Source: Prorocentrum cordatum (Eukaryota; Sar; Dinophyceae; Prorocentrales; Prorocentraceae). Taken from it: a stretch of 64,000 bases of DNA. Made by a program: the position numbers and the translations under genes. The notes beneath the pieces were generated by a model, which saw only the letters and a list, made by a program, of their open reading frames with translations, was not told the DNA's origin and did not search any database. Shown in pieces: positions 17,701 through 60,665 of the stretch. Each line of letters opens with the position of its first letter. The first letter of the stretch is position 1. The stretch is from contig CAUYUJ010011270.1 of NCBI GenBank assembly GCA_963575745.1, positions 1 through 64,000 of the forward strand, written 5' to 3'.

Positions 17701-18187
17701 GACCAGCAGACCCGCGACGGGCAGCTGCCGGTGGCGTAGGCTCCGATACCCCGTCCGCGGCGGGAACGAGCACCTTCCCCAGCGCGTCCTCTAGGGTTTC
17801 TCCTGCGACACCGTGGCCCTCGGCGACAGCTGGCTCATCTTCTGCAGCGTTAGATGTTCCAGCCCATTTCGCGCACCCTGGCACCCCCGCAGGCTTGCTC
17901 ACATAGTCTTTCCAGTTGGCGCCCAGCGCAATGTTGAGGAGCCGCGTGCAGGTGTCATGCGAAACTGGCTTTGGCCACGCCAACACACATTTGTTCTTCG
18001 TTACCTTCTCCAGCGTCACTTTTGCGGTCGGGGCCCCTTTTGCCACCCTGGCCATGCTATTGCTGCAGGTCTCCCTCAGCTTCTTGTTGATCTTGTCGTT
18101 GTTCGACCCGTCACCCTGCAGGTAACAGCCCCACTTATAGAAGAGAACCTTGTTCCTGTCGCGACCGCTGCCGCCCGAGGCAGCCAT
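14792..18187 (-). CDS. protein kinase fused to 2OG-Fe(II) oxygenase-like domain
   Basis: Start chosen at the ATG at 18,187 (MAASGGSGRDRNKV). About 290 residues of unrecognised N-terminal sequence come first. The kinase follows: GQGSFGKVYLG and AIKML (N-lobe), VYELFEIDVRQF (hinge, near 17,240), HMHDRGLIHCDIKPANIL (catalytic loop, Asp kept, Arg replaced by Cys), VVLADLGCVE (DLG instead of DFG), and YSEDLDMWSIGCLMAELYT (CDK/DYRK-like), ending with CLLWHPGARATISRL. After it, without a stop, is an oxygenase-like domain: DGWHTDGGCSLLHSAVTILG (H-x-D iron ligands) and LSSLEHNVHHH (candidate distal His). An intron lies at 16,393-17,042. Small frame changes occur near 17,180 and 16,080, and a short intron is likely near 17,260-17,330. 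Kinase would phosphorylate Ser/Thr; the oxygenase substrate is unknown. Confidence 0.6.
16425..16612. repeat. GAGCTC hairpin satellite inside the kinase intron
   Basis: Six or so copies of the palindrome TTAGAGCTCCC-TGGGAGCTCTAA occur here, with ACATGG/CACGTG-type spacers. Identical units make up the main array at 24-28.7 kb. The sequence around 16,455-16,480 recurs in reverse near 16,580-16,605, so the whole block is a larger inverted repeat. Confidence 0.85.
16640..16945. repeat. GAC/GAG microsatellite
   Basis: A long run of GACGACGAG-type triplets lies within the kinase intron. It produces poly-Ser/Val/Thr frames that fuse artificially to the kinase exon in naive translation. Confidence 0.9.
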
Positions 18188-18729
18188 CGCCGCGGAGGCC
18201 CGCTGACGGCAGTGTCGTCCCTGCGGGCCCCTCCTCCGTCCTCCTCCCCCCCCTGCGGCCGCTCCTCGGAGCGTTGCTTCCCGTGTCTTCCCTACCCTGC
18301 TGCATCCCCATCCTGGCCCGCCCCTACAGAGCGCCGTAAGGATGCAAGGGCCTTGGCGGCATGGTATATGTTGTTTATCCAGCTCCCCAGCTTCGGAACG
18401 GAAGCCGTAGGATGCAACGAGGGTACCCTTTCGAAAGGTAAGCATCCTGACTCTGCGCCTTGCCTGCGCCGTGGGCCAAGTGCGACGGATGGCGACGAAG
18501 GGGTGACGGAGGACTATGTTCCTATCCGTACGCAAGGTGCCGTGTGCTGCACAGGCCAGAATGTGGCGCGCGTCCCATTGCGAGAACGGAGGCGACGCCG
18601 CCAGCGCGCGACTGTTGCAGTCCAAAATCAAACAAGTGGCAGCTCCACGGGAACAGGAGCGGGCGGGCTGGCTCCTGCGTCGGAGCTGTCGAATTCTGTT
18701 GCAGCCTGTGCTCAAGCCTGTGCTCTGTT
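18188..18729. other. spacer between two minus-strand genes
   Basis: About 540 bases between the start of the kinase gene and the stop of the next gene upstream. It is Arg/Ala-coding in the kinase frame but has no domain. CTGTTGCAG occurs at 18,612-18,620, with related copies near 18,700-18,740. No promoter element can be identified with confidence. Confidence 0.4.
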
Positions 18730-20380
18730 TCAGCCTGTCTTCGGCTTCTTCTTCTTCGAGGCCGAGGAGTCGTCTGAGGGCGAGGAGTCTGAGGTCGAGG
18801 ACGCGTCGGCGTCGCGCTTCTTACCCTTCCTACCCTTCTTCTTTTTATCATTAGTGTCCTTATTCTTATTATCCTTCTTGTCCTTTTTCTTGTCCTCCTT
18901 CTTGCCCTCCTTCTTGTTGTCGTCCTCCTTCCCATCCTTCGGGTCCTCCTTCGGGCCCTCCTTTGTCAGGCGCAACTGCGCGGAGCGTGCAAGCAGATCC
19001 TCGCTCACGAACACCATAGTGCTGCCCCCGAGCATGGCCTCGACGGCACGCTCCACGAGAAACGGCTCGAGCACTTTCGCGTGGTGGTCGTCGAAAGTCA
19101 AGGCCAACACACTGCGCCCGCTCTCGATGCAGCCGTGCATGCCTGCGCCGCCCGCAGGCGTGCCGAAGTGCACCCACCTGGGCTTCCCCGCCTCGTGGCA
19201 GAGCTCCTTGAGGAGCTCGATGTCGTTGTCGTGCGGGAACCACGGCACCTCCGTTCCCGTGAGCTGGCGGTAGAGTTTCCGCTTCTTCACGGCCGCAGTC
19301 ACGAAGGCCTTCTCGGGGCGGACGGCTGTTGCAGCTTCGTCGCGCGCCTCGGCGCCGCAATCAGCGGCCTCGTCCTCCTGGAGAGGGTGGCAATACCCCA
19401 GCTTCTCTCGATCCTCGGCCGCCACCTCGGCGACGCACTGGCCGACCATGCTGGCCAAGCTGGTCTCCCGAACCTTTTTGGGCACGAGGGCGTGGCTCTT
19501 CTGCGGCAGGACAGGCACGTTCCTCATCACTTCGTTGAAGAGGGGGCTGTCCGCGTCCACGAACTGCCTGATCTTGGCCATTTGCTTCGGCTTCCTCCCC
19601 TTGTAGCAGAGCAACATGACCTCGTGCGAGCGCGAGTTCGCCAGGCCTCGCTGCCTCTGGAAGTGGCCGTACTGCTGCATCTGCTTCGTGTTGTAGGCGA
19701 GGTGGCATGTGACCGTGCGGAACTTGTTTGCGGCGAGGGTCTTCTGGATCTTCGGGGGGTTCGACTGCGCGCGGCCCGTCAGCACCCACAGCGCGTCCCG
19801 TCCACCGACCATCAGCGGTTCCAGGGACTTCAGGTAGCGTGTGAAATCCAACTCGTCCAGCGCGGGCTCACGGTGCGTGAGGCCTTGCCCCTCGAAGACG
19901 CAACGCAACTTCGCATTCTTGACATCGTAGAAGCCCATCAATGATGCATTATCTGTGAGGTTCTGGTATAGGCGTGTCTTAGTAACCGGAGCGTTGATAT
20001 CCATGGCGCTGCCCTCCGCCGCGATCATGACGACCCGCGTATCCAGCACGGTAGAGCACTGCTGCTCGCACAGCGCCTTGAAGTTATTCACGTCGCTCGG
20101 GGAGACGTCGATCTTCTTCTTGTCCTCGGAGGCCGCCTCCGCTGTTCCAGCGCCGCCCGCTGTTGCAGCACCGACCGTGTCGCTGTCTGCAGGCTTTTCC
20201 TCTGACGGTTCCTGGGGGTTTCCCACGAGGGAGTCGTGCGCGATCTGGAACTTCTCGAAGAACCTCTTGTTCACTCGCACGCTCCTGTGGAACTTGTCCA
20301 CGTTGTAGCGCTCGGCGCACGGCTGGGTGAGGTCGCCAGAGATCTCCTGCTTGTAGAATTCCTGGCCTATTTCGAGGAAG
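18730..20380 (-). CDS. unknown protein, faint methyltransferase-like C-terminus
   Basis: The longest intact segment of a disrupted gene, about 549 codons from a frame change near 20,380 to the stop at 18,730. I do not recognise a named family. The segment WVLTGRAQSNPPKIQKTL to LLCYKGRKPKQ reads as a folded domain. WVHFGTPAGGAGMHGC followed by GRSVLALTFDDHHAKVLE resembles the glycine-rich SAM loop and following strand of N6/N4 DNA methyltransferases, but no D/N-PPY motif is evident. The last 70 residues are a Lys/Asp/Glu-rich tail (KKEDKKKDKKD) ending in Ser/Lys, like a nuclear or nucleic-acid-binding tail. Two CTGTTNCAG nonamers read in frame as A-x-T-A. Confidence 0.45.
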
Positions 20381-23954: not shown

Positions 23955-26900
23955 CGATCGTATGTCAGAGCTCCAATGGAGCTCTAACATCGTATGTTAG
24001 ATTATGTTAGAGCTCCCTGGGAGCTCTAACATCGTATGTTAGAGCTCCGTGGGAGCTCTGAGGCGGCGGCGGCGGGTAGGTTAGAGCGACCAGGGAGCTG
24101 TAACATAGCATGTTAGAGCTCCCAGGGAGCTCTAACATGCTATATTAGAGCTCCCATGTTAGAGCTCCCTGGGAGCTCTCCCTGAGGAGCTCGAACATGG
24201 CATGTTAGAGCTCCGTGGGAGCTCAAACATGGCTTGTGGGAGCTCCAACGGAGCTCTAACATAGCATGTTCGAGTATGTTAGAGCTCCCTGGGAGCTCTA
24301 ACATAGCACGTTCGAGTATGTTAGAGCTCCCTGGGAGCTCTAACATGGTATGTTAGAGCTCCGTGGGATCTCTACCATGGCTTGTTAGAGCTCCAACGGA
24401 GCTCTAACATAGCATGCTCGAGTATGTTTAGAGCTGCAAGCTCCGAGAGCTCTAACATAGCATGCTCGAGTATGTTAGAGCTCCCGGGGAGCGCTAACAT
24501 GGTATGTTAGAGCTCCGTGGGAGCTCTAACATGGCATGGTCGAGCTCCAACGGATGTCTAACATAGCATGTTCCAGTATGTTAGAGCTCCCTGGGAGCTC
24601 TAACATGGTATGTTAGAGCTCCGTTGGGAGCTCTAACATGGCTTGTCAGAGCTCCAGCGGAGCTCTAACATAGCATGTTCGAGTATGTTAGAGCTCCCTG
24701 GGAGCTCTAACATAGCATGTACCAATATGTTAGAGCTCCCTGGGAGCTCTAACATGGTATGTTAGAGCTCCCTGGGAGCGCTAACATGGTATGTTAGAGC
24801 TCCAACGGAGCTCTAACATAGCATGTTCGAGTATGTAAGAGCTCCCTGCGAGCTCTAACATGCTATATTAGAGCTCCCATGCTAGAGCTCCCTGGGAGCT
24901 CTAAAATACCGAGCTCCAACGGAGCTTTAACATAGCATGTTAGAGCTCAGTGGGGCCCCCTGGGAACTCTAACATGGCATGTTAGAGCTCCAACGGAGCT
25001 CTAACATAGCATGTTCGAGTATGTTGAAGCTCCAACGGAGCTCTAACATGGTATGTTAGAGCTCCGTGGGAGCTCTAACATGGCATGTTAGAGCTCCAAC
25101 GGAGCTCTAACATAGCATGTTCCAGTATGTAGAGCTCCAACGGAGCTCTAACATTGCATGTTCGAGTATGTTAGAACTCCCAGGGGGCTCTAACATGCTA
25201 TATTAGAGCTCCCATGTTAGAGCTCCCTGGGAGCTCTAAAACACCGAGCTCCAACGGAGCTTTAACATAGCATGTTAGAGCTCAGCGGGAGCTCCCTGGG
25301 AATTCTAACATGGTATATTAGAGCTCCGTGGGAGCTCTAACATGGTATGTTAGAGCTCCAACGGAGCTCTAACATAGCATGTTCCAGTATGTTCGAGCTC
25401 CCTGGGAACTCTAACATGGCATGCTAGAGCTCCGTGGGAGCTCTAACATGGCTTATTAGAGCTCCAACGGAGCTCTAGAATAGCATGTTCGAGTATGCTA
25501 GAGCCCCCTGGGGGCTCTAACATGCTATGTTAGAGCTCCGTGGGAGCTCTAACATGGTATGTTAGAGCTCCAACGGAGCTCTACCATAGCATGTTCCAGT
25601 ATGCTAGAGCTCCCTGGGAGCTCTAACATGGTATGTTAAAGCTCCGTGGAGCTCTAACATGGTATGCTAGAGCTCCAGCGGATCTCTAACATAGCATGTT
25701 CCAGTATGTTAGAGCTCCCTGGGAGCTCTGACATGGTATGTTGGAGCTCCGTGGGAGCTCTAACATGGCTTGTTAGAGCTCCAACGGAGCTCTAACATAG
25801 CATGTTCGAGTATGTAAGAGTTCCCTGGGAACTCGAACATGGTATGTTAGAGCTCCGTAAGAGCTCTAACATGGCATGTTAGAGCTCCAGCGAAGCTCTA
25901 ACATAGCATATTCCAGTATGATAGAGCTCCCTGGGAGCTCTAACATGGTATGTTAGAGCTCCGCAGGAGCTCTAACATGGCTTGTTAGAGCTCCAACGGA
26001 TTTCTAACATATCATGCTCGAGTATGTTAGAGCCCCATGGGAGCTTTAACATGCTATATGAGAGCTCCCATGTTAGAGCTCCTGGGAGCTCTAAACTACC
26101 GGGCTCCAACGGAGCTTTAACATAGGCTAGAGAGCTCAGTGGGGGCTCCCCGGGAGCGCTAACATGGCATGTTCGAGCTCCAACGGAGCTCTAACATAGC
26201 ATGTTCGAGTGTGTTAGAGCCCCCTGGGAGCTCTAACATAACATGTTCCAGTATGTTAGAGCTCCCTGGGAGCTCTAACATGGTACGTTAGAGCTCTGTG
26301 AGCCCCATGGGAGCTCTAACGTGCTATATTAGAGCTCCCATGTTAGAGCTCCATGGGAGCTCTAAAATGCCGAGCCCCAACGGGGCTTTAACATAGCATG
26401 TTAGAGCTCAGCGGGAGCTCACTGGGAGCTCTAACATGGTATGTTAGAGCTCCAACGGAGCTCTAACAGGGCTTGTTAGAGCTCCAACGGAGCTCTAACA
26501 TAGCATGTTCGAGTATGTTAGAGCTCCCTGGGAGCTCTAACATAGCATGTTCCAGAATGTAAAAGCTCCCTGGGAGCTCTAACATGGTATATTAGAGCTC
26601 CGTGGGAGATCTAACATGGAATGTTAGAGCTCCAACGGAGCTCTAACATAGCATGTTCCAATATGTTAAAGCTCCCTGGGAGCTCTAACATGGCATGTTC
26701 GAGCTCCGTGGGAGCTCGAACATGGCTTGTTAGAGCTCCAACGGAGCTCTAACATAGCATGTTCGAGTATGTTAGAGCTCCCTGGAAGCTCTAACATGGC
26801 ATGTTAGAGCTCCGCGGGAGCTCAAACATGGCATGTTGGAGCTCCAACGGAGCTCTAACATAGCATGTTCCAGTATGTTAGAGCTCCCTGGGAGCTCTAA

Positions 26901-28685
26901 CATGGCATGTTAGAGCTCCGTGGGAGCTCTAACATGGCTTGTTAGAGCTCCAACGGAGCTCTAACATAGCATGTTCGAGTATGTTAGAGCTCCCTGGGAG
27001 CTCTAACATGCTATATTAGAGCTCCCATGTTAGAGCTCCCTGGGAGCTCTAAAATACCGAGCTCCAACGGAGCTTTAACATAGCATGTTAGAGCTCAGTG
27101 GGAGCTCCCTGGGAGCTCTAACATGGTATGTTAGAGCTCCAACGGAGCTCTAACATAGCATGTTCGAGTATGTTAGAGCTCCCTGGGAGCTCTAACATGG
27201 TATGTTAGAGCTCCGTGGGAGCTCTAACATGGCATGTTAGAGCTCCAACGGAGCTCTAACATAGCATGTTAGTATGTTAGAGCTCCCTGGGAGCTCTAAC
27301 ATGGTATGTTAGAGCTCCGTGGGAACTCTAACATGGCTCGTTAGAGCCCAACGGAGCTCTAACATAGCATGTTCGGTATGTTAGAGCTCCCAGGGAGCTC
27401 TAACATGCTATATTAAGCTCCCATGTTAGAGCTCCCTGGGAGCTCTAAACTGACGGAGCTTTCGTGGGAGGGATAACAGCTTCGTGGTGGAGCTGGGAGC
27501 TCTAACATAGCAGTATGTTAGAGCTCCCTGGGAGCTCTAGCATGGCATGTTAGAGCTCCGTGGGAGCTCTAACATGCTTGTTAGAGCTCCAACGGAGCTC
27601 TAACATAGCATGTTCGAGTATGTTAGAGCCCTGGGAGCTCTGACATGGCATGTTAGAGCTCCGTGGGAGCTCTGCATGTTCCTGTATGTTAGAGCTCCCT
27701 GGGAGCTCTAACATGGCATGTTAGAGCTCCGTGGGAGCTCTAACATGGCTTGTTAGAGATCCAACGGAGCTCTAACATATCATGTTCGAGTATGTTAGAG
27801 CCCCCATGGGAGCTCTAACATGCTATATCCGAACTCCCATGTCAGAGCTCCCTGGGATCTCTAAAATACCGAGCTCCATCGGAGCTGTACCATAGCATGT
27901 TAGAGCTCAGTGGGAGCTCCCTGGGAGCTCTAACATGGTATGTTAGAGCTCAAACGGAGCTCTAACATAGCATGTGCGAGTATGTTAGAGCCCCCTGGGA
28001 GCTCTAACATGGTATGTTAGAGCTCCGTGGGAGCTCTAACGTGGCATGTTAGAGCTCCAACGGAGCTCTAACGTAGCATGCTCCAGTATGTCAGAACCCC
28101 CTGGGAGCTCTAACATGCGATGTTAGAGAGCTCTAACACGGCTTGTTAGAGCTCCGTGGGAGCTCTAACATAGCATGTTCGAGTATGTTAGAGCTCCCAG
28201 GGAGCTCTAACATGCTATATTAGAGCTCCAATGTTAGAGCTCCCTGGGAGCTCTAAAATACCGAGCTCCAACGGAGCTTTCACATAGCATGTTAGAGCTC
28301 AGTGGGGGCTCCCTGGGAGCTCTAACATGGTATGTTAGAGCTCCGTGGGATCTCTAACATGGCTTGCTAGAGCTCCAACGGAGCTCTAACATAGCATGTT
28401 CGAGTATGTTAGAACCCCCTGGGAGCTCTACGTGGCATGGTAGAGCTCCCGGGGAGTTCTAACATGGTATGTTAGCCTCGAGCTCTAACATAGGATGTTG
28501 TTAGAGATCCCTTGGAGCTCTTCTATCATGGCATGTTAGAGCTCCCATGGAACTCTAACATGCTATGTAAGAGCTCCTTGGGAGCTCTAACGTGTTATGT
28601 TAGATTTCGGTGTGAGGGTTGTGAACTCTAACATGCTATGCTAGAGCTCGATGGGAGCTCTAGCATAGCATGTTAGAGCTCCCAT
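23955..28685. repeat. main GAGCTC hairpin satellite array
   Basis: About 4.7 kb built of the imperfect palindrome TTAGAGCTCC-xx-GGGAGCTCTAA, each a potential hairpin, with ACATGG/TATG or ACATAGCATG spacers. Three loop types alternate (CCTGG, CGTGG, CAACG). Together they form a higher-order unit of about 107 bases (for example the CCTGG loops at 24,591 and 24,698), with a recurring marker GCATGTTCGAGTATG. A second composite unit contains TGCTATATTAGAGCTCCC and AAAATACCGAGCTCC. No ORF or gene interrupts the array. Confidence 0.95.
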
Positions 28686-32365: not shown

Positions 32366-32983
32366 CCCTCACATGGTAGAGCTCCCAGGGAGCTCTAACA
32401 TGGCATGTTAGAGCTCCCAGGGAGCTCTAACATGGTAGTTTAGAATAGCTTCAGGGAGCTCGAACAAGCTCTGTTATATCTCCCTGGGAGCTCTAACATA
32501 GGATGTTGGAGCTCCCGTGGACCTCTGACATGCTATGTTAGAGCTCCCGTGGAACTCTACCATGGCATGTTAGATCTCCCATGGAGCTCTAACATGCTAT
32601 GTTAAAGCTCCCACGGAGCTGAAACCTACGAAGTTAGAGCCCACAGGGAGCTCTAACATACTCTAACATGCTAAGTTCGAGCTCCCACGGAGCTCTGACA
32701 TGCGATGTTAGAGCTCCCAGGGGGCTCTAACATAATATAACATGTTATGTTAGAGCTCCGTTGTAGCTCTAACATACGATGTTAGAGCCTCCAGGGAGCT
32801 ATAACATAGCATGTTAGAGCTTCCACGGAGCTCTAACATACGATGTTAGAGCTCCCAGGGAGCTCTAACATGCCATGTTCGAGCTCCCACGGGGCTCTAG
32901 CATACCATGTTAGAGCTCCCAGTGAGTTCTAACATACTCTAACTTGCGATGTTAGAGCTCCCTGGGAGCTCTAACCCGCCCCC
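32366..32983. repeat. GAGCTC hairpin satellite patch
   Basis: Units of TTAGAGCTCCCAGGGAGCTC and variants occur every 30-45 bases, more degenerate than the main array and mostly with CCACGG or CCAGGG loops. Confidence 0.9.
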
Positions 32984-33868: not shown

Positions 33869-35288
33869 GCGGGTTAGAGCTCCAGGGAGCACGAACATAG
33901 CAAGTTAGAGTTCGTTAGGGCTCCCGGGGTGCTCGAACATGGTTTGTTAGAGCTCCGTGGGAGCTCGAACATGGCATGTTCGAGCTCCCTGGAAGCTCTA
34001 ACATCGTATGTTAGAGCTCCAATGGAGCTCTAACATAGCATGTTATATTATGTTAGAGCTCCCTGGGAGCTCTAACATCGTATGTTAGAGCTCCGTGGGA
34101 GCTCTAACATGCTATGTTAGAGCTCCAATGGAGCCCTAACATAGCAAGTTAGAGTATGTTAGAGCTCCCTGGGAGCTTTAACATGGTTTGTTAGAGCTCC
34201 GTTGGGGGCTCTAACATGGCATGTTAGAGCTCCATGGGAGCTCTAACATAGCATGTTATATTATGGTAGAGCTCCCTTGGAGCTCTAACATCGTATGCTA
34301 GAGCTCCGTGGGAGCTCTAACATGCTATGTTAGAGCTCCCAGGGGGCTCTGACATAGCAAGTTAGAGTATGTGAGAGCTCCCTGGGAGCTCTAGCATGCT
34401 ATGTTAGAGCCCCCTGGGAACTCTAACATCGTATGTTAGAGCTCCATAGGAGCTCTAACATCGTATGTTAGAGTTCCGTGGTAGCTCTAACATCGTATGT
34501 TAGAACTCCGTGGGACCTCTAACATGTCATGTTATAGGTCCCTGGGAGCTGAAACATGTCATGTAAGAGCTCCCAGGGAACTCCCTGACACCTCTAACCT
34601 AGCATATTAGACCTCACAGGGAGCTCTAACATGGCATGATAGAGCTCCAAGAAGTTCTAACATGTTATGTTGGCACTCCCAGGGAGGTCTAACATGACAT
34701 GTTAGAGCTCCAGCGGAGCTCTAGCATAGCATGTGATAGTATGTTAGAGCTCCATGGGAGCTCTAACATCGTATGCTAGAGCCCCATTAGAGCTCCAATG
34801 GAGCTCTAGAGTAGCATGTTAGATTATGTTAGAGCCCCCTGGGAGCTCTAACATCGCATGTTAGAGCTCCGTGGGAGCTCTAACACGGCGGCGGCGGTGG
34901 CGGCGGGTAGGTTAGAGCGACCAGGGAGCTCTATCATAGCACGTTAGAGCTCCCAGGGAGCTCTAACATGCTGCGTTAGAGCTCCCATATTAGAGCTCCC
35001 TGGGAGCTCTAACATACCGAGCTCCAACGGAGCTCTAACATAGCATGTTAGAGTATGTTAGTTAGAGCTCCCTGGGAGCTCTAACATGGTATGTTAGAGC
35101 TCCGTGGGAGCTCTAAAATGCTCCAACATGCCATGTTAGAGCTCCCAGGGAGCTCCAACATGGCTTGTGAGAGCTCCAACGGAGCTCTAACATAGCATGT
35201 TAGAGTATGTTAGAGCTCACTGGGAGCTCTGACATGGTATGTTAGAGCTCCGTGGGAGCTCTTACGTGGCATGTTAGAGCTCCTGGCC
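33869..35288. repeat. GAGCTC hairpin satellite array, second large block
   Basis: The same hairpin family as at 24-28.7 kb. At 34,885-34,970 a CGG run followed by GGGTAGGTTAGAGCGACCAG is nearly the same as 24,062-24,110, showing that array segments have been copied between blocks. Confidence 0.95.
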
Positions 35289-43124: not shown

Positions 43125-43470
43125 TGGGAGCTCTACTACACATGGTATGTCAGAGCTCCCTGGGAGCTCTAACATCCTCTAGCATGCCATGTTAGATCTC
43201 CATGGGAGCTCTAACATGGTATGTTAGAGCTCCAATGGAGCTCTAACACCCTCTAACATGCCATGTTAGAGCTCCCAGGGAGCTCTAACATGGCATGTTA
43301 GAGCTCCCTGTGAGCTCTAACATCATGTAGCATGCCATGTTAGAGCTCCAGGTGAGCTCTAACATGGCATGTTAGAGCTCCAATGTAGCTCTAACATCCT
43401 CTAACCTGCCACGTTAGAGCCCCATGGGAGCTCTAACCATGGCATGTTAGAGCTCCATGGGAGCTCTTAT
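43125..43470. repeat. GAGCTC hairpin satellite, probably intronic
   Basis: About eight hairpin units with ACATCCTCTAACATGCCATG spacers. The block ends a few bases outside the apparent acceptor at 43,118-43,120, as the kinase-intron block does. Confidence 0.85.
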
Positions 43471-51350: not shown

Positions 51351-51650
51351 GACCTAGCTAGCTACAGGCAAAAACTGGAGCTGACTCGACAGCACAAAGG
51401 CTGTAGCAAGGCAAGTAACAGAAAGTGTGACAACTGCTCACAGAACAACATTCAAGATGTGTTGCGCAAAGCGGGCGCAGCTTAGCAGAGCAAAATGTGA
51501 CTTTGTTGTTGGCGGGATTGCAGCGCCATTGATACTCCCCATACATTGTTTTCACTTTGGGGGCCTGCTGAACGCGCGTGCGGACTGACTCTGCCGCGCT
51601 GCGACGTCAGATGTCTGCACTTCGAGATTATACGAAATTGGGCAGGTATG
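51351..51650. other. unique spacer, no gene
   Basis: Relatively AT-rich sequence between TIR element copy 2 and a CCGTCGCCGCC repeat. Nothing recognised. Confidence 0.5.
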
Positions 51651-51651
51651 C

Positions 51652-51905
51652 CGATCTGGCGGCTATGTAGTTGCCGTCGCCGCCTCGTCGCCGCCCGTCG
51701 TCTGGGCCGGTGTGCCGCTTTGCTGGCTATGCAGTCGCCGTCGCCGCCCCGTCGCCGCACGTCTTCTGGGCCTGTCGGCCTGTCTGGCGGTTATGTGTCC
51801 GCCGTCGCCGCAGCATCGCCGCCTCGTCGTCGCCCGTCGTCTGGGCCTGTCTGTCGCTCTGGCGGCTACGTTGCTGCCGTAGCCGCCCCGTCGCCGCCTC
51901 GCGAC
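51652..51905. repeat. imperfect tandem repeat, about 62-68 bp
   Basis: Units of CTGGCGGCTATGTAGTTGCC plus GTCGCCGCCTCGTCGCC and GTCGTCTGGGCC repeat four times. Val/Ala/Arg-rich frames on both strands follow from the repeat. Confidence 0.8.
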
Positions 51906-52587
51906 CTTTCGATTCTCTCTTTTGAGACTAGGACCCACCACCCTCCCGATGCCGGACTTTTCTGCCCCCCTTGGGGATGCGCAACTTACATATGATTATG
52001 CCTCATCGTTCATTCTAAAAATGAACTCATACGATCCCAGCCAAACCAATATCGACACCCCCTCATCCCTTGCAGAGAGATACTATGCGCGCGCACTTCT
52101 TCATCGCCAAAGACTTTATGTAAGACTCCTCTTCGCACAAATTGGACGAAGTGCGCACGCGCGCGTCGTCGCGCGCGCATCCCGAAATCCATCGAAAACC
52201 CTTCGAGCTCGACTTCGTAAGGATTTCGAAGTCGCGTGCCCCGAAAACAAATTCGCCGGCCCGACGGGCCACAGGCGTGCTAAGATCTCTAATAGCTGGT
52301 CACCAATCTTTCTAATTCGCGCGCGCGGGGCGGGCCCTGGGGGTCCCCGGACGAAAAGTACCCCGGCAGACTCCCGGCAAGTCCTGTTCAAGGATACTGG
52401 AACTCTTTTTCGGAGCCCCAGAGGGCTCCAAATCGGTCCAAGAGGGCCCCAAGAGGTCCCCCAGACGGTCCAAGAGGCCCCCGAGACGCCCAAAGAGCGC
52501 TCCAAGACGCCGATGATGACCCCAAGACGGCCCAAGCAAGTGGCCTCCAAGAGGCCTCACAAGAGGGCCGACAGGCCAAAATTATAA
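51906..52587. other. unique spacer ending in CCAAGAGG repeats
   Basis: No gene. Contains (CG)n-rich sequence at 52,150-52,182 and an inverted pair CTTCGTAAGGATTTCGAAG near 52,212. From 52,415 to 52,565 CCCAAGAGGCCCC-like words recur, as at 4.7-5.1, 51.0-51.3 and 59.2-59.5 kb. This is the sequence into which the 52.6-59.2 kb element is inserted on its left side. Confidence 0.5.
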
Positions 52588-52727
52588 AGCACAACCAGGC
52601 GGACGATGGATGCCAGACAACTTTTATGAGAACTCCGACCGCAGGCGACATCAGCCATCCATCCCGGGCCCCAAGGCCTAGGGCGAGACACGGGATCACA
52701 GGCCAGATGGCAGCAAATGAGATCCCC
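52588..52727 (-). repeat. split direct repeat B2
   Basis: The 3-prime terminal repeat of the element, 138/140 identical to B1, offset by 289 bases. The flanking sequence beyond it (...CCAAAATTATAA) is presumed target DNA. Confidence 0.85.
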
Positions 52728-52778
52728 AGACAGTGCAGCACAAAGGATGCAAGCGACAGGGAGGGCGGGAGGGAGAGC

Positions 52779-52877
52779 TTGAGCCGCGTGCCACGGATAG
52801 CACACGGGACTGTGAATTCTCACATGCGGCATCCTTGCGGCCATACCCTCCTGTGCTTACAGATCTAAAATCAAACA
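52779..52877 (-). repeat. split direct repeat A2
   Basis: Identical copy of A1 placed between B1 and B2. Its outer end abuts B1 directly, as expected for the circular junction. Confidence 0.85.
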
Positions 52878-53016
52878 GCACAACCAGGCGGACGATGGAT
52901 GCCAGACAACTTTTATGAGAACTCCGACCGCAGGCGACATCAGCCATCCATCCCGGGCCCCAAGGCCTAGGGCGAGACACGGGATCACAGGCCAGATGAC
53001 AGCAAAGGAGATCCCC
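52877..53016 (-). repeat. split direct repeat B1
   Basis: 140 bases beginning AGCACAACCAGGCGGACG and ending GAGATCCCC on the plus strand. It differs from B2 at two positions (ATGACAGC for ATGGCAGC, AAAGGAG for AAATGAG). Confidence 0.85.
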
Positions 53017-53204
53017 CGAATCCCGCAGGAATGACTGGGCCACCAAGGCCGAACCAAAAAGTCAAACTTAAAACGAAACACAGTGGTCGCCCACAGCCCC
53101 CAAGACGCACCAACAGGCAACAGTGTCAGCACCCCCCAAGAGGATCGGTACCAGCGGCAACCCGACCATCAGGGAAGTACACGACGCTGCTACCTGCCAG
53201 GCAG
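53017..53204 (-). other. 3-prime non-coding part of the retroelement
   Basis: Between the methylase-like stop and repeat B1. No coding signature. Confidence 0.6.
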
Positions 53205-54037
53205 CTAGACATCGAGTCCAGAGGCGAGGGCCCGCAAACGACGAATAGCGATTCGCATTGACCCATGGATCGTTAACTTCGCAACGGACTGAGCCAATCT
53301 CGGCGGATACGAGGCAGCTAAGGCGGTCCAGTTCTTGCCGCCAGGAGCCTTTCCAGTCAAGACAATGTGTGGCTTCTGGGTCCTACTGCACAGGCCGTGG
53401 CGACAATTGCATTTCTTCTGGAGTGAGTGGAGAGAGGGAGAAAGCCAGGCAGAGATACGAGTGGGCTTCATCCATCGGGTGCCATACTGACACATGTGGA
53501 AACAACTGACTTATGAATAGGGTTTTGGCACTGCTGTAGCATGCGGGGCGCAGACCACATCTGGGACAGGGCTGGGTTCTCGATATATACTGGAACACCG
53601 CACTTGATGCATAAATCAACTACTCGGCAACTGAAAGTGAAAGTGGCACTCCCTGCCGCCAGCCGCCCTTGCTCGGCCTGTGAGAGCAAAGCGGCAGGGG
53701 TGCCCATCGGGTGGTCGCGCGAGCGAAGTGGATGACGGAGGGCCCTGCTCCAAGACGTGCAAGGGGTTCCCAAGAACACCCCCGAGACACATCCACTAGA
53801 GATCCACCCACGAACGAGATTGATGAATGCAGGGCGCAGGTGATTCTCACCAGCCGAATTTTTAGAATCCAGGTCAAGGGCAGAAACGCCCAGGCCCCGA
53901 AGGGCCTTCGAAAGGGACCCGGACCCGGCAAACAATTCAAGAAACAACCGATACTGAGACGGATTATGGGACCCCTTTTCCCCTATGTAACTCCTCCTTA
54001 AAACGGCACTGCAGGTGGGCGCGAATTTCAGAGGCAC
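53205..54037 (-). CDS. C5-DNA-methyltransferase-like domain, one frameshift
   Basis: The frame from 54,037 shows YRLFLELFAGSGSLSKAL (motif I, the SAM-binding F-A-G-x-G), SGVFLGTPCTSWSRAL (motif IV, P-C-x-x-x-S with the catalytic Cys) and VPVYIENPALSQMW (motif VI, E-N). Near 53,475-53,490 the line shifts and continues as CQYGTRWMKPTRISAW, then CNCRHGLCSRTQKPH and the C-terminal helix PPRLAQSVAKL, stopping at 53,205. Such a domain would methylate cytosine in DNA, perhaps the element's own. DIRS-group elements often carry a methylase, more usually of the adenine (Dam) type. The domain call is good; the activity is unknown. Confidence 0.65.
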
Positions 54038-54055
54038 GGAGGGAGTAGGAGGGTC

Positions 54056-55093
54056 TCACTGGTGGCTTCTGTGATCTCCTGATGGGCGCAGCCTTCGGGC
54101 AGCTCGCACCGCCAGCACGAGCGTCGCTGGGATGAGGTGACCGATGCTGGCCTCCAGGGTCCCGTCTGCCATGACCACCGTCCAGACATGCTCCAACTTG
54201 AGATGTCCGAGACGAAATACGCCGCCGTGCGCAGAGCGGATCTCCGGCAGCAGCTTTGTCTCCTTGCCGTGCCGTTCTAAACTCTTCACGGATGCCAGCC
54301 TGCTCTGAAGCTCCCCCTGGAACGCGTTCCTTCGGCGACTGACCGAGCCGTCCAACGCACCCCCGCGGCGGAGGCCGCGCAGGTGGTCCGAGACCTGGGG
54401 GAAGCACAGGAGGCTTAAGCAGCGGGGCCTCAAGGCCTCGACCGCGAACGACCACAGGCACTTGAACGTCTCGCTGGGCCTCAGGTCGGCAACGAACGAC
54501 AGTGCGACCCAGACGGCCATCCAGGGCGCACCCGCCTCCACCAGCATCAGGCACATGGCCGTGGCTACCGCCTTCGGCAATGGCAGCTGGGGCCCCACAG
54601 GCACCCTCCGCTTCCAAGGGATCGAGGCGCGAGCAGCCCTCGGCCACTGCAGCTCCCACTGCACCTGCAAGCTCGGGTAGAGATGCGCGAGGCCGCCCAG
54701 CCGCTGCGTGCCGTGGTCGGACGACACGTTGTGGTGAGAGCAATCGTCCATGTGCTGGGCTAGGACCGCGCCCATCTCCACGACGTCGTGCCAGTCCAGG
54801 CCCAGCTTGGCGCACAGGTCCAGGATGGCTGTCGCATTTTTCTTGTAGAGAGCCTCCGTCACCAGGCGGATCGCAATCTGCTCGAGACCCGTGAGGGGCC
54901 CCAATGGCTCCCGCTGTGCGGTCAGGCGCTGGGCGGTGGCAACACGCGTATCGCGCTGTGCTCTGGCCCGCCCCTTCGCCATTCCAGGTGCGGCCCGCGG
55001 CGTCGCCCGCAGGCGGCAGGCGGCGCGCCGCGCGGAAGCCTGAGAACCATCCGAGATGGCAACGGGAGAGGCGATCCGACGGGTTCCTCTCAC
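54056..55093 (-). CDS. tyrosine-recombinase-like domain of the retroelement
   Basis: Follows the RNase H after a shift near 55,070. Content: a helical N-terminal segment (IAIRLVTEALYKKNATAIL), then RVPVGPQLPLPKAVATAMC, and WVALSFVADLRPSETFKCLW, matching the first conserved block of tyrosine recombinases (L-R-x-S/T-E with the catalytic Arg). Further on LRGLRRGGALDGSVSRRRN lies where the H-x-x-R block belongs, and VKSLERHGKETKLL is where the nucleophile Tyr is expected; here His seems to replace it. The recombinase would integrate a circular DNA copy. The catalytic loss is inference from a remembered pattern, not an alignment. Confidence 0.55.
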   Translation of the reverse strand: MRGTRRIASPVAISDGSQASARRAACRLRATPRAAPGMAKGRARAQRDTRVATAQRLTAQREPLGPLTGLEQIAIRLVTEALYKKNATAILDLCAKLGLDWHDVVEMGAVLAQHMDDCSHHNVSSDHGTQRLGGLAHLYPSLQVQWELQWPRAARASIPWKRRVPVGPQLPLPKAVATAMCLMLVEAGAPWMAVWVALSFVADLRPSETFKCLWSFAVEALRPRCLSLLCFPQVSDHLRGLRRGGALDGSVSRRRNAFQGELQSRLASVKSLERHGKETKLLPEIRSAHGGVFRLGHLKLEHVWTVVMADGTLEASIGHLIPATLVLAVRAARRLRPSGDHRSHQ

Positions 55094-57456
55094 TGGAGAT
55101 CCAACGAACGTGCAGACGGCATCCTGAAGCCAGTGACAACGAGGCCAACTTCAACATGACAGACTGAAGGTGAACTGATTTCGCTCGGCCCTTGCAGCAA
55201 GCCAGCGCCAGACACATGTTATCGACGAAGGCAACCACTCGCCGCCCCACGGCAGCACCAGCGCGCAGGATGTGCTTGTAGGCCAACACGAGGGCCTCAC
55301 CCTCTAACTGCATGATATCGGCGTCGTAGCCCACTCGAACGGCCAAGACATCCTTCCAATCCTGGGGCCTCATGAGGTCCGCGGGGATCTCCTCGAAGAG
55401 CAGGGGGTCCACGTCCATGAACCCGAGGGGCATGTAGTCCGGCGGGCGGGCGGCAGCCTCCGCGTAGACGACGTCCCGAGAGTCCTCGAAGTCCCTAGAC
55501 TCCCGAAGTGCGTTGAGGCGAGCCTTCTCCGCGCCCTCCACACGATATCTCACTCTCTCGCTTACTCGACCGATCTCTGCAACTTGATCCTCAGAAAGTG
55601 ACCGATGGCAAACTCCAAGACCGAACTCTGACGCGTCCGAGGCACAGATCTGCGGATGCCACCCTGCACACATGTCCGTTGTGAGGAGAGGGAGAGTAGC
55701 AACAATCCTACGAAGCTCTAATGCCACCTGAGGCCAGAGGGGGGTCACCACATCCTTTGCCGTCTCAATGAACGCGTAGCACGCATTCAGGATGGCCAGA
55801 GCTTCACGACGGACCATCGAGGACCACGTGATATGTCCCACAATAACTCTGAGCAGAACACCGCTGGCAGAACCCCTGGCCAAAAGGCGCTCAATGGCGA
55901 AGCGCAGGCGCCAGAGGCTCCGAGGCTTCACAGACAGCCAGCGGCCGGCGACGACGAGAAAAGGTCGAATCCCTAGACGGCTCACAGACTTCATGCACGA
56001 GGAGACCAACAGATCTGAGCCTAGCGCTAATCTGGTCAAAAGCAGCCTTCACATTTTTCTGAGACTGGCCCAGCACGAGAAAGTTATCAACGTAGCCCGC
56101 AGCAGCCGTATCATCGGCTGCCCTAAAGAAGACGCCGGGCTCACCGTCCGATATGACGCGACTCGGGCTGAAGCCCGCCTCTTGGATAGCGCTTCGCATC
56201 GCAGCCTGACAAAAATGAAGGGCCCAGGAGAAACCCATCGGCATCACAGTTATGCACGGAAGGAGGGCCTGTCCCGCCATCTGAGGAACACCCTCCAGTC
56301 CAAAGGACACGAGTAAACCCGAATCGATGGGCGGCAAAGAGAACCATTCTATCATGTCAGCGGGAACCCGCATGCGATAAAAAGGCACACTGAACATCAC
56401 CTGAAGCAGCAAGACAAGGGCCGCCTCTCGATTCGATGGCAGAGAAGGCGGAAGCCGAGGGGAGTCGAGTAGAGGGGGGGGCGTTGAAATAAAAATTGGC
56501 AACTCTAGTGTCGAAAATGAGACGTAATTGATCAGACTTCTTGGCCGCGCAGAATACTCCAAGGAGGCCCTTCCTACCCCGCGCAGGCTGAAAGCAACAT
56601 CCCGCGCCGGGCCAGACAGGCCAGAAAGTCAGCGTAATTACGCGGAGGGGGAGTGGGAGAGGATAGGGTCGATATAGGCTCCTTTGGGACAGGCCTCCTG
56701 CACCAAAACCTGGGCCTCAGTTGCTGGCCTCAGCATGTGAGATCTCCAATCCTTAAGCCAGGAGGAATCGGCCTGTGAGAGCAAACGATGAAGGTCAACA
56801 GGGACCGTGCCCTCATCAGGCCACGCAACGAGGTCACGCGAATAAGAAGGGGTGGGGCCCGCATCCCCGTACAACGACTGGTTGCTCAGAAGCTCGCTGA
56901 GGGCTCCCTGAGCGAATCCCGCCTCGCTGGGAGGAGGGCCCAGACGACAGCAGCAATCGCTGAAGCGATCGAGTACTCTTTTCTGAGCAAGAGAAGCGGG
57001 GGCCGGCGCAGTCTCCTTATATCCTGACATCTGGTTGAGGGCCTTCACAGCATCATTAGCCCAATTGACTGAATGCTGGAGGCGAAGGCGGCGACGGCGC
57101 ACGGCCCTGCAGACACTCGCTGGAGCATCGGAGCGAGGGCCGAGGAGAGGGAGCGGGAAAACGTCTCTCTGCCGGTAGCTGCCACCAGAACGGGGATTCA
57201 AAAAGTCGCTCGAGCCCGGGCCCCCATCTCCCGGGCTCGGGGGTAACTCACGTCCCACCGCCGGGCCCTGAACCATCCTTGCCGCCTTTCTTGGCGCCTT
57301 TCTTGGCCGGGCCCGCTCCCCTCGCGCCTTGCGGCGCTCCTTCGAGATCTGGTACTCCTTCGAGAGTTGATCTTTGACGAAATCGGCCAGCTGGGGGCTC
57401 ACGCACACACATCCTCGAATCATGTCCGTCCCCATGTACAGGTGGTTGTCGGCCAC
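55061..57456 (-). CDS. retroelement reverse transcriptase and RNase H, frameshifted
   Basis: A 272-codon N-terminal region from 57,456 (HLYMGTDMIRGCVCVSP...) leads to RT. Near 56,600 NYADFLACLARRGML occurs; the frame then moves to GVFCAAKKSDQLRLIFDTR (finger motif), GDVQCAF (motif A, with Asp), and after one T too many, FYRMRVPADMIEWF near 56,382. Next are TVMPMGFSWALHF (motif B) and AAGYVDNFLVLG (motif C, YVDN for YVDD) near 56,094. After another shift near 55,970 the RNase H follows: ICASDASEFGLG, MQLEGEALVLAY, VAFVDNMCLAL and NPSDRLSR. The Ty3-type RNase H layout fits DIRS-group elements. It would copy the element RNA and degrade the RNA strand. Confidence 0.75.
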
Positions 57457-58654
57457 GCTGTCCGATCCGCCGGCCTATCACGGTATCGTTCTTCCTGCAC
57501 TTGAATCACACGGCACATCGATTCGGCACACGCCAGGTTAGTGACCATGAGCTGATCGTAGAATACCATCTGCTCCAACATCCGACATGCTCTCTCATGT
57601 TCGTCAACCCCCACGTCGGACGACGACAACTTGGCCTCGGTCCGAAATCGCATATGACGGCCCATGGGCCAATGGGGCTTCCTCCATTTTGTTACATGAA
57701 CTTCAGCACCCATAGGACGGTCCGTGGGCCTCGGATTGGCCAGTCCGGCCACGCGTCCTCTCGCATCATCAGAATGGCGTCGCGGAAGGAGCGGTGGCGG
57801 TTGCCCTGCACGTCAAGCGACACGGGCTGCACGCGCACGTCGCTGATACCCTGAGGAGCAGCGGGAGCAGGTGCAGCACCAGGGAGCAGGGCCGCGGCGG
57901 CGGCGGCTGGCGCCGGGGCCAGAGCCGGGGCCGCCACCGCGGGGGCGCCCGCGAGACCCACAGGGCCCGCGGCGCCCGCGGGGGCCAGGCCCGGAGCCAC
58001 GGCTGCTGCCGGCGCCGGTGGCGCCACGGCAGGAGGCAGCAGGCCCCCCCCCCGGCCCCGCAAGGGCAGCTCCCACGGCGGCCAGCGCGGCCACGGGGAC
58101 GAGCCCTCCACCCGGTGCTGGGCCGTCGGCCGCGCCACCTGCTCCACCGCCTGCCGCAAGCGCTCCTCCAGGCGCTGCGGGCGCGGGCACGGCCAGGGCT
58201 GCCGCTGGGCCAGCCGCGCCTCTGGCCCGACAGCCCCGACAGCTCCAGCAGCGGGCATCGGCATTCCAGCGAAACCAGCACGGCCGACTACGTTCACCGC
58301 GAAGCCTGGGCGCAATGGCAGGCCAAGGCGAGCTGCAGCAGCGTCTCGAAGTCCCTGCATTGCCGCAGGCAACGGCACATTCCGAAACCTGTGCACATGA
58401 TCGGCCCCGACGGGTCCAGCATCTCGTCCGAGCGCCCCGCCCTCCAAGATCGCGAACTCCCGGATGTCGCCACCAGATGACAGATCCTCCTCGTACTGAT
58501 CACCGTCCGGGGTTAGAATGCTGACAATCGGCTGGGCCCCAGGAGGAATCAAGAGGATGATCCTTTCATGCCAGATCCGGGGCCCCACCACTCCGTAACG
58601 CACGGCGATCACGTCGCCCTCCCACAAGCCCAAGTGGGCCAAGGGGTTAGCCAT
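57420..58654 (-). CDS. retroelement gag-like ORF, frameshifted at its end
   Basis: ATG at 58,654 (MANPLAHLGLWEGDVIAV). The N-terminal domain includes GPRIWHERIILLIPPG and SILTPDGDQYEEDLSSG. A long Ala/Pro-rich linker (about residues 110-275) follows, then RVQPVSLDVQGNRHRSFRDA and IRGPRTVLWVLKFM with a stop at 57,692. In another frame coding continues: KWRKPHWPMGRHMRF, then EHERACRMLEQMVFYDQLMV, NLACAESMCRVIQVQEERY. The last part leads without a gap into the RT ORF. Position and composition suggest a structural or nucleic-acid-binding protein. Confidence 0.6.
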
Positions 58655-59028
58655 CAGCCCACACGTTGAGTCGCCTGGCTGCGGCTACGAAATCGAGCGG
58701 CCTGCTCACGGGCGATGTCCTCGATCGAAAGGGAGATGTCTATCTTGTGCGTGTCGTTAGTGCAGGCCTTCTGGTCGCAGCGGCGCCCAGCCGCGAAGCC
58801 GGCCGCGCCCACGATGCTCAGGCCGAGCACGAACCACACCCAAGGGAACGGGCAGCTGCACTCCACGGGCACCAGCTCCTTCACCGCCTCCCCTGGGCCG
58901 CACACGAGCTGGGGCAAGCAGTGGCAGTCGGGGCAGGGCGGCGGCGGCCGCGACAGCCCCCAGACCACGGCGGCTGTCTGCGCCGCCCGCGCTACCTCAG
59001 CCGTAAAGGCCTCGGCCAGCGCCTGCAT
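58654..59028 (-). CDS. retroelement ORF1: small Cys-rich membrane protein
   Basis: Start chosen at the first ATG (59,028, MQALAEAFTAEVARAAQ); an upstream open frame has no ATG. The 124-residue product has a Cys cluster (CPDCHCLPQLVC, then VECSC), a single membrane-spanning stretch (FPWVWFVLGLSIVGAAGFAA) and a charged C-terminal tail. The stop TGA overlaps the next ATG (TGATG), suggesting coupled translation with the gag-like ORF. Its role is unknown; an envelope-like or membrane-tethering role is only a guess. Confidence 0.55.
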   Translation of the reverse strand: MQALAEAFTAEVARAAQTAAVVWGLSRPPPPCPDCHCLPQLVCGPGEAVKELVPVECSCPFPWVWFVLGLSIVGAAGFAAGRRCDQKACTNDTHKIDISLSIEDIAREQAARFRSRSQATQRVG

Positions 59029-59068
59029 GCGCGAGCGGGGCTTTGGGACCGACCACCCCCTCAAGAGT

Positions 59069-59167
59069 TTGAGCCGCGTGCCACGGATAGCACACGGGAC
59101 TGTGAATTCTCACATGCGGCATCCTTGCGGCCATACCCTCCTGTGCTTACAGATCTAAAATCAAACA
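59069..59167 (-). repeat. split direct repeat A1
   Basis: 99 bases identical to 52,779-52,877, from TTGAGCCGCGTGCCACGG to AGATCTAAAATCAAAC on the plus strand. It forms the 5-prime end of the retroelement, ending 41 bases before the first ATG. It may hold the promoter and the start of the transcript. Confidence 0.85.
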
Positions 59168-59565
59168 TTTTACGATGGTGTTGGAAGGATGTTGGCCTTG
59201 TCGCCTTTTCGGCCATCCGATGCTCCAAGACGTCCCAAGAGGCACCCAAAAGCGCCCCATGACGGGCCAAGAGGCTTCCAAGAGGGCCCCAAAAGGGCCC
59301 CAAGAGGACCCAAGAGGCGCCCAAGACGGCCCAAGACAGACAGCCCCAAGACGGCCCCAAGAGGGGCCCAAGAGGGCCCCAGGAGGCCACGAGAGGCCCC
59401 CAAGAGGCCCCCCAGAGGCCCCAAGATGCCGCCAAGAGGACCCCAAGAGGCCCCAGGAGGCCCCCAGGAGGCCCAAAAGAGGTCCCAAAAGTTCAAACAT
59501 GCCTCCCAAGCGCCTCCGAACGGCTTCTCAAAAGACCCCAAGAGGCCTCCCATAGAAGCATCTTG
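59168..59565. repeat. CCCAAGAGGCCCC irregular tandem repeat
   Basis: From about 59,215 to 59,560 words of the type CCCCAAGAGGCCCAAGA recur every 9-15 bases. Minus-strand frames read as W-G-x-L-G-x-S repeats, which could be mistaken for a structured protein. Related blocks are at 4.73-5.15, 48.97-49.19, 51.04-51.29 and 52.42-52.57 kb. Confidence 0.8.
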
Positions 59566-59624
59566 ACGACGACCCTGTTTGGCCTCAAGAGCAACACAAG
59601 ATGCCAACGAGAGGCTTCCTCCTC

Positions 59625-59790
59625 CGCCCCTTCCCCTTCCTCCTCCTCCTCCTCCTCCTCCTCCTCCTCCTCCTCCTACTTAATTATCTTCATCCTCCTC
59701 TCCTTCTCATCCTCTCCTCCTCCTCCCCTCCCCTTCCCCATCCTCATCTTCCTCCTCCTCCTCCTCCTCCTCCTCCTCCTCCTCGGCGGC
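59625..59790. repeat. TCC microsatellite
   Basis: Pyrimidine-only triplet tract with one interruption near 59,676-59,690. Confidence 0.9.
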
Positions 59791-60170
59791 GCCACAGTGG
59801 CCCTGGGCCCACGGCGAAGCAGTAGCGATCATGCAACATGGGCCGGCGGAATGAGCGAAGCGATTGAATAAAACCAAGCGGCTTCGCAACAAGACCTTTC
59901 AAACAGAGCCCGCGCTCGCCTCCAGAGGAACGAAGATCGGCGGAGGAACAGGAGGGAGGGAGGGGGAGCAAGGGACGGAGGAAGAGGAGGCAGGGAGGGA
60001 CGCGACCGTCTCCTCGACCGTGGCGACCGACGACCGTCCGCCCAGGAGGCCTCCCGGCCAGCCAGCAGCCCCACGGAGGGCGGCACGGGGAGCCCGGGCG
60101 GCAGGTCGAGGCCTCTCGGGGCGCTCGGCGGGCGGCGCGCTCGGCTGGCCGCCGAAAGCGCCGCCCTCGA
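59791..60170. other. intergenic, no gene recognised
   Basis: Mixed, Arg/Gly-coding GC-rich sequence with GGAGGAGG patches; nothing identified. Confidence 0.5.
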
Positions 60171-60174
60171 TCGA

Positions 60175-60480
60175 GGGGCCGATGATCGGAGCTCGATCCT
60201 CGATCGAGCCTTGATCCTCCTCGATCCTCCTCGATAATCGTCGATCCTCCTCGAGCCTCCTCCTCCTCCTCCTCCCTCCTTCCCTCCCTTCCTGGGATCC
60301 TCGACCCTCGATCGAAGGCAGAGGACCTCCGCCCTCGATCGAGGGCCGAGGATCGGACCTGGATCGACTGTCGAGGATCGGACCTCGACCCAGGATCACG
60401 GATCGAGGAGGATCTAGGATCGAGGCGCATCGAGCATCGAGGAGGTCCGTGCCTTGATCGAGGACCGAGGGAGCATCGGG
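60175..60480. repeat. CTCGATC/GATCGAGG palindromic words
   Basis: Words such as TCGATCCTCGATCGAG, CCTCCTCGATC and GATCGAGGACCGAGG recur in both orientations. The region can fold into many short hairpins. A smaller relative lies at 7,985-8,085. Confidence 0.75.
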
Positions 60481-60665
60481 GCAACCTCCTCCACAATTAC
60501 TCAATTATCCCGGCAAAGCAACCTAACAGCGATGTGTAGAAGCATATCTGAAAGCATTCCCCTTAAGATTCAGACGAAAATCCAGTTGTCGAATTCTGCT
60601 GTTCTCGCAGTCGTAGTAGCATTCGCGATGACAGTCGCAGCGGCAACGGCAGTCGCAGTCACAGC
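60481..60665. other. unique spacer
   Basis: About 185 bases of mixed sequence; nothing recognised. Confidence 0.5.

Follow-up and report, generated by a model that had tools for sequence, protein, structure and literature searches.

In a 64,000-nucleotide stretch of Prorocentrum cordatum DNA (contig CAUYUJ010011270.1, positions 1 to 64,000, hereafter the window, which is the start of contig C11270 of the assembly searched) we analyzed an element on the minus strand at 52,588–59,167. The element is one copy of a PAT-like family of tyrosine-recombinase retrotransposons; it is real, and its limits had been drawn correctly. It represents a variant on a known type of element, interesting because a subfamily has spread whose recombinase no longer works. 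From sequence comparison we consider it likely that one clade of the family, which carries a deletion in the tyrosine recombinase (YR) and includes the window copy, has been integrated in trans by the YR of full-length relatives. We see a slightly better than even chance that this clade is a half-autonomous lineage, which would have lost integration and kept its own Gag, reverse transcriptase (RT) and a retrotransposon methylase of undescribed type, its sisters integrating it at a partly palindromic AT-rich target.

The element is built from two pairs of direct repeats. On the minus strand the terminal repeat A1 (59,167–59,069), which forms the 5' end, is followed by the coding frames, the internal repeat B1 (53,016–52,877), the internal repeat A2 (52,877–52,779), a spacer of 51 bp (52,778–52,728) and the terminal repeat B2 (52,727–52,588), which forms the 3' end. 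The 99 bp of A1 and A2 show no difference, the 140 bp of B1 and B2 contain two mismatches, and B1 runs into A2 with a single T at 52,877 common to both. The same pairs were recovered independently as repeats of 104 bp at 99% and 153 bp at 96% identity. No inverted pair of at least 25 bp was found in 51,500–60,500; the repeats are direct, in contrast to DIRS1-like elements, which are defined by inverted terminal repeats with an internal complementary region. GC content is 62% in the element and 60% in the window, the latter close to the 59.7% given for Prorocentrum cordatum (PMC11453091).

We searched the whole assembly (4.13 Gb, 21,875 contigs) with both repeats, which gave at least 40 scored matches of 45 candidates for A and at least 40 of 67 for B, the window's own included in each case. 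Twenty stretches around matches were retrieved for comparison (L009–L028). All 14 other retrieved loci with two A hits (L009–L022) showed the order A1-body-B1-A2-B2 with the same ends, B2 being broken in L014, and since this layout and these ends recur we do not regard the arrangement as chance. In 13 of 15 copies the spacer between A2 and B2 is 51 bp long, and the remaining two have 53 bp. In L023 and L026 B1-A2-B2 is visible, in L025 and L027 A1 lies near the edge of the stretch, and L024 contains no repeat. The diverged locus L028 is an exception to the layout, carrying A1 and a single B with no A2. The first-pass annotation had described an A repeat of 99 bp in two identical copies, a B repeat of 140 bp with two differences and the order A1-ORFs-B1-A2-B2 (ORF, open reading frame) on the minus strand, all of which was borne out by direct comparison. 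It also placed both ends rightly: other copies (18 five-prime ends were compared) end at the same places, and none extends beyond them in the retrieved stretches. Nor do A and B behave as unrelated dispersed repeats, as they accompany the body wherever the retrieved stretch is long enough. B1/A2 as the junction unit, the predicted circle junction, is supported, and the overall assignment to a tyrosine-recombinase retrotransposon with split direct repeats is likewise supported. Repeat pairs within one copy diverge by 0.4–5.5% (15 copies); the window copy, with 2 differences in 239 positions, is the second youngest of the 15 by this measure. Contigs C10903 and C1091 gave B matches (85–87%) with no A match among the matches listed, and could contain diverged copies or lone B repeats.

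The recombinase was compared using the YR of locus L015, an open frame of 412 amino acids (aa). Searching the genome with this protein brought up 14,609 first-look candidates; 101 of these were scored and 109 matches listed. In six copies (on C13211, C17656, C14869, C6324, C13270 and in the window) the match falls into two parts that meet exactly, with the break at residues 210/276, revealing an in-frame deletion of 195 bp, or 65 codons, which includes the GKTG lysine box and is common to six of 17 copies. In the window copy the defective YR occupies 54,059–55,072 (minus strand), the 65 codons are missing at 54,460/54,461, and the GRW and KRY boxes are changed as well. The tryptophan is also lost in five of the six deletion copies, L011 keeping both W and Y; the position of the catalytic tyrosine is changed in the window copy only. 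The YR frame is still open in five of the six. A splice trace was considered as the origin of the deletion and rejected, since its boundaries are not intron-like. In a tree of 17 copies the six form one clade with ultrafast bootstrap support of 100, whether all columns, gag and RT-RNase H alone or YR and methylase alone are used; L023 and L026 have long branches, perhaps owing to badly aligned stretches. The possibility that L011 is a recombinant was rejected, as it is basal in the deletion clade. The description of the element as nearly complete does not stand as worded, since it passes over the clade-wide deletion of 65 codons in its YR and the loss of further catalytic positions.

Comparison of 11 flanks of the deletion copies (1.1–1.8 kb each, the 5' flank of L023 left out) revealed only short repeats in common, the longest of 71 bp, and the copies therefore lie at different sites. 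If the deletion arose once, at least five insertions must have come after it. Segmental duplication or assembly redundancy would produce six copies without transposition, and some other YR hits do resemble duplicate contigs, with equal scores on C845/C20566, C8635/C14649 and C13527/C16148. The lack of long shared flanks, together with differences of 3.5–6.4% between the bodies of five deletion copies, makes this explanation extremely improbable.

We also assessed the selection acting on each gene, leaving out gapped codons and stop codons. The deletion set comprised four of the six copies, with L011 added as a fifth; L023 was left out (5' part unread, 2,206 N). Among the four deletion copies dN/dS was 0.42 (0.28–0.64) for gag, 0.50 (0.37–0.68) for RT-RNase H and 0.38 (0.23–0.60) for the methylase, while YR reached 1.06 (0.68–1.81), i.e. 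a neutral value. Eight full-length copies gave 0.26, 0.33 and 0.30 for gag, RT-RNase H and methylase, and 0.47 (0.35–0.65) for YR. The ratio of YR to the remaining genes in the deletion group was 2.35 (1.41–4.11), rising to 2.88 (1.90–4.50) when L011 was included. These values bear on the idea that the shortened YR still works or took on another role, for instance as a DNA-binding cofactor for full-length YR. An in-frame deletion and a frame kept open in five of six copies would suit such a role; however, a GC content of 62% by itself favors open frames, the lysine box is gone, the tryptophan is lost in all deletion copies except L011, and dN/dS is about 1. We consider a working short YR very unlikely.

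Both groups of copies insert at similar sites. An A is found at position -1 of the 5' flank in 17 of 18 cases and a T at -2 in 13 of 18; on the 3' side A occupies +5 in 17 of 17 insertions and T occupies +6 in 16 of 17, with the window copy carrying A at +6 instead. In the window these two sides of the target correspond to 59,168–59,170 (-1 to -3) and 52,580–52,587 (+1 to +8), both on the minus strand. When random offsets were taken in the same flanks, AT occurred a mean of 2.7 times, with a maximum of 9 over 20,000 draws, and after exclusion of (TA)n flanks AT at +5/+6 was still present in 10 of 11. We therefore describe the target as approximately ATA|T-NNNN-AT-N-T, a partly palindromic sequence. 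The preference is the same in deletion and full-length groups, AT at +5/+6 being present in five of six deletion copies. No consistent target-site duplication was found: suffix/prefix matches of the flanks span 0–7 bp in 15 copies, with a mean of 2.0 vs 1.28 in shuffled pairs (fraction 0.08), and the 7-bp matches belong to L018 and L021, whose flanks are repetitive. The junction in most copies reads GTTGTGC-T-GNNTGATTTTAG with small variation, the last T of B2 being probably shared with the target. Both flanks of the window copy contain arrays of the 11-bp CCAAGAGG type, as expected if the element inserted within one such array, and its empty site, as predicted from the flanks, would read CCAAAATTATAA joined to ATTTTACGATGG. 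An array forms the 3' flank of L015, its units including CCACTAAATGGCAATCTTCGG and CTACTAAATGGTAGATCTCGG; joined by eye with one T, the L015 flanks give CCACTAAATGGTAATTCTCGG, an empty-site comparison in which no base is lost or duplicated.

Following the established model for this order of elements, RNA running from A1 to B2 would be copied by the element's own RT, the repeated B1-A2 unit would serve as template for circularization by joining the element's ends, and a YR would recombine the circle junction with a matching AT-rich genomic site. With the YR deletion presumably present in the common ancestor of the six copies and at least five insertions following later, the deletion copies would make their own Gag, RT and methylase, and the YR of full-length relatives would integrate them. 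Between the groups the terminal repeats are 95.5–96% identical, vs 87% for YR and 90% for gag, and the full-length relatives that would supply YR have the same target. Integration in trans would explain the clade-wide deletion, the neutral YR beside otherwise constrained genes, and the similar repeats and target. If the clade is such a half-autonomous lineage, copying would be tied to the element's own RNA and integration would belong to the family as a whole. A recombinase lost throughout a clade, with selection continuing on the other genes, offers a natural experiment on the cis/trans division of labor, a subject which to our knowledge has been little studied in YR retrotransposons; as ends, junction and target are defined, the question can be tested.

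The identity of the recombinase was examined by profile comparison. In 18 of 23 aligned rows of the family and its relatives the residues R, K, R, W and Y are all kept, as in recombinases of the DIRS order; among rows with losses, L048 has no first R, and the window copy has no K, W or Y. Eight ORFs in this genome match PF00589 above the Pfam cut-off, and the 23-row profile aligns to them over 269 columns with the catalytic boxes in register (hhalign probability 99.8, E 1.8e-29). These eight ORFs in turn align to four textbook recombinases (probability 92, E 5.6e-7). Searches of the family YR against Pfam and NCBIfam gave no match. When the genome was searched with PF00589, 150 places were scored of 1,362 candidates, none of them among the places listed for the L015 YR search. 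In box II the family reads HxYxLRHGG, with His five residues before Arg in 21 of 23 rows; three residues before Arg, 15 rows carry Tyr, five Cys, two His and one Arg. HxxR is present in several of the PF00589-matching relatives. Among the 101 scored matches to the L015 YR are many open frames of 400–500 aa with 39–47% identity (e.g. L034–L047), and related tyrosine recombinases are possibly very expanded in this genome. The contig pairs with equal scores named above, on which recombinase hits are equal or overlap, are perhaps duplicate haplotype contigs. Strong PF00589 matches of 84–94 bits on C554, C2511, C17589, C21419 and others possibly stem from bacterial contamination of the assembly.

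Several observations weigh against integration in trans or against its starting point. Decay of YR extends beyond the deletion clade: L030 and L031, both full-length YR rows, have lost W and Y, and L039 has lost the lysine. The 23-row profile did not align with lambda Int, Cre, HP1 Int and XerD (probability 0.7%), the family YR gave no match in searches of PF00589 and PDB sequences, and its box II places His at the usual HxxR position in just 2 of 23 rows; the link from YR to known recombinases passes through the PF00589-matching ORFs of the assembly. In the full-length group, too, YR is under the weakest constraint of the genes (YR/rest 1.66, 1.14–2.45), and the difference of this ratio between the groups gave P 0.14 with four deletion copies and 0.03 with five, L011 included. 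Pairs of L023 with other deletion copies had YR values from 0.67 to 1.04. A 3' noncoding stretch is 95.1% identical between groups, so that the terminal repeats are no better kept than this. No transcript, circle or protein was seen. To judge from the ORF lists, none of the aligned copies keeps all four genes open, and the constraint measured is therefore past constraint. This last point, together with the weakest constraint falling on YR in both groups, would suit an ordinary decaying copy of an autonomous family, in which the YR deletion is damage without meaning for mobility. Such a history is unlikely, since gag, RT and methylase were still constrained after the deletion, and a 195-bp deletion common to a six-copy clade at different sites is most simply older than at least five insertions. 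We retain integration of the deletion clade by the YR of full-length relatives as the likely reading.

ORF tables gave the gene order gag-like, RT-RNase H, YR and methylase. The first-pass annotation had named gag-like, RT-RNase H, recombinase-like and methylase-like parts, which is right in kind, though the window copy is degenerate: in addition to the missing lysine box of YR, gag contains one in-frame stop and the RT and methylase frames are broken. The first part of the gag-like ORF lies at 57,692–58,684 (minus strand, as all frames of the element) and is closed by the stop, whereas related copies remain open to about 57,250. It is constrained in both groups (dN/dS 0.26–0.42) and had no Pfam match at E ≤ 1. 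The N-terminal part of the pol frame follows at 56,638–57,474, forming one ORF with RT in L009, and RT itself at 55,891–56,628, with GDVQCAF and YVDN, which we take to be RT motifs A and C. RVT_1 matched below the cut-off (E 0.012 in the window, 0.0035 in L009), indicating a divergent RT. A presumed RNase H-like domain, with the motifs SDAS, LEGE, VDN and NPSD, has approximate limits 55,040–55,690 and had no profile match. An RT with RNase H, as in the DIRS order, is thus indicated by presumed motifs and a sub-threshold RVT_1 match, and in agreement with that order neither a DDE integrase nor an aspartic protease was matched when sets of 8 and 6 ORFs were searched in Pfam at E ≤ 1. At the end of RT motif C, Asn replaces the second Asp (YVDN or variants thereof) in 10 of 13 copies with the pattern, from both subfamilies; L021 has DD.

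The methylase-like region of the window copy lies at 53,205–53,990 in two frames. Six of eight aligned family members match PHROG 757 (DNA methyltransferase) with a best E of 1.3e-9, the sole significant profile match. No Pfam methylase exceeded the cut-off in the eight members, neither PF05869 nor PF00145 being matched; PF02086 (D12 adenine methylases) matched weakly, below the cut-off, in three of the eight (best E 0.29). Compared with known enzymes, PHROG 757 itself matched Dcm weakly (E 0.063) and one phage C5 enzyme at 0.0068, with no match to E. coli Dam. The motif order FxGxG ... PCxxW ... EN presumably resembles that of C5 enzymes; when its profile was compared with Dcm and phage C5 enzymes, however, the alignment was confined to motif I and of low probability (3–4%). 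No relatives were found in the phages and viral contigs searched. The dN/dS values of 0.38 in the deletion group and 0.30 in the full-length group indicate purifying selection. CpG depletion as a trace of self-methylation was rejected, since the observed/expected ratio is 0.87–0.93 in 15 copies vs 0.86 outside.

We compared the family with known retroelements, using the definitions of PAT, Ngaro and DIRS1 in PMC4157794, PMC3266345, PMC3783388 and PMC8547959. The split direct repeats A1 ... B1-A2-B2, RT-RNase H, methylase and YR are shared with the PAT superfamily (Pat1, Toc, Kangaroo; PMC4157794, PMC3266345), and YR is oriented as in Pat1 and Toc (PMC4157794, PMC3266345). The family differs from PAT in its methylase: DIRS elements are described as having a Dam-like enzyme (PMC3783388), but here there is no Dam match and the methylase follows YR. 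The element had been assigned to a PAT/Ngaro plan. This stands for the split-repeat plan, which is PAT-like, but lumps two groups: the agreement with PAT is partial, and Ngaro is defined by split direct repeats without a methylase, which here is present and constrained. The element might instead be an Ngaro with a spurious methylase-like region, since Ngaro elements share the A1-[ORFs]-B1A2B2 plan and have their internal repeats downstream of YR (PMC8547959, PMC4157794). The match of the region to PHROG 757 (E 1.3e-9) and a constraint as strong as on RT make this decidedly unlikely. The Ngaro elements of Cafeteria resemble the PAT-like family in this plan, in a length of about 6 kb and in a protist host (PMC8547959), and an ORF1 deletion is reported for some types; they differ in that the available text mentions no methylase and describes a YR which keeps His-X-X-Arg and is predicted by PF00589 (PMC8547959). 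VIPER/SIRE of trypanosomatids share split direct repeats and order, SIRE being a possible non-autonomous derivative (PMC6681497). Unlike the deletion copies, which lost YR alone while the other genes stayed under selection, SIRE represents the A2-B2 region (PMC6681497). Circles have been described for DIRS-1 (PMC5633606).

The closest known system is SymbioDIRS-Dnmt3, a DIRS-like element of Symbiodinium (de Mendoza et al. 2018, PMC5890265). Both have a dinoflagellate host, A-coding-B-A-B repeats, a separate YR ORF, a methylase under purifying selection and an RT aligning poorly with Pfam (PMC5890265). SymbioDIRS-Dnmt3 is defined by a Dnmt3-type DNA methyltransferase (PF00145) inside the Pol ORF, whereas here the methylase follows YR and PF00145 was not matched in the eight members. 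A recombinase-deleted subfamily is not mentioned in the available text of PMC5890265, and no YR retrotransposon subfamily lacking the recombinase and otherwise constrained is described in the titles and abstracts of the open-licence literature searched. The family represents a second methylase-bearing split-repeat element in a probably dinoflagellate genome, in which related recombinases may be very numerous.

Outside the element we noted an ORF at 17,261–18,820 (minus strand) with a weak protein kinase match below the cut-off (PF00069, E 2.7e-4). A palindromic unit of 32 bp, ATGTTAGAGCTCCCTGGGAGCTCTAACATGGC with its variants, forms arrays at 24,202–28,604, 32,373–32,975, 33,914–35,276 and 43,140–43,467 of the window, and the first of these arrays also matches itself in inverted orientation.

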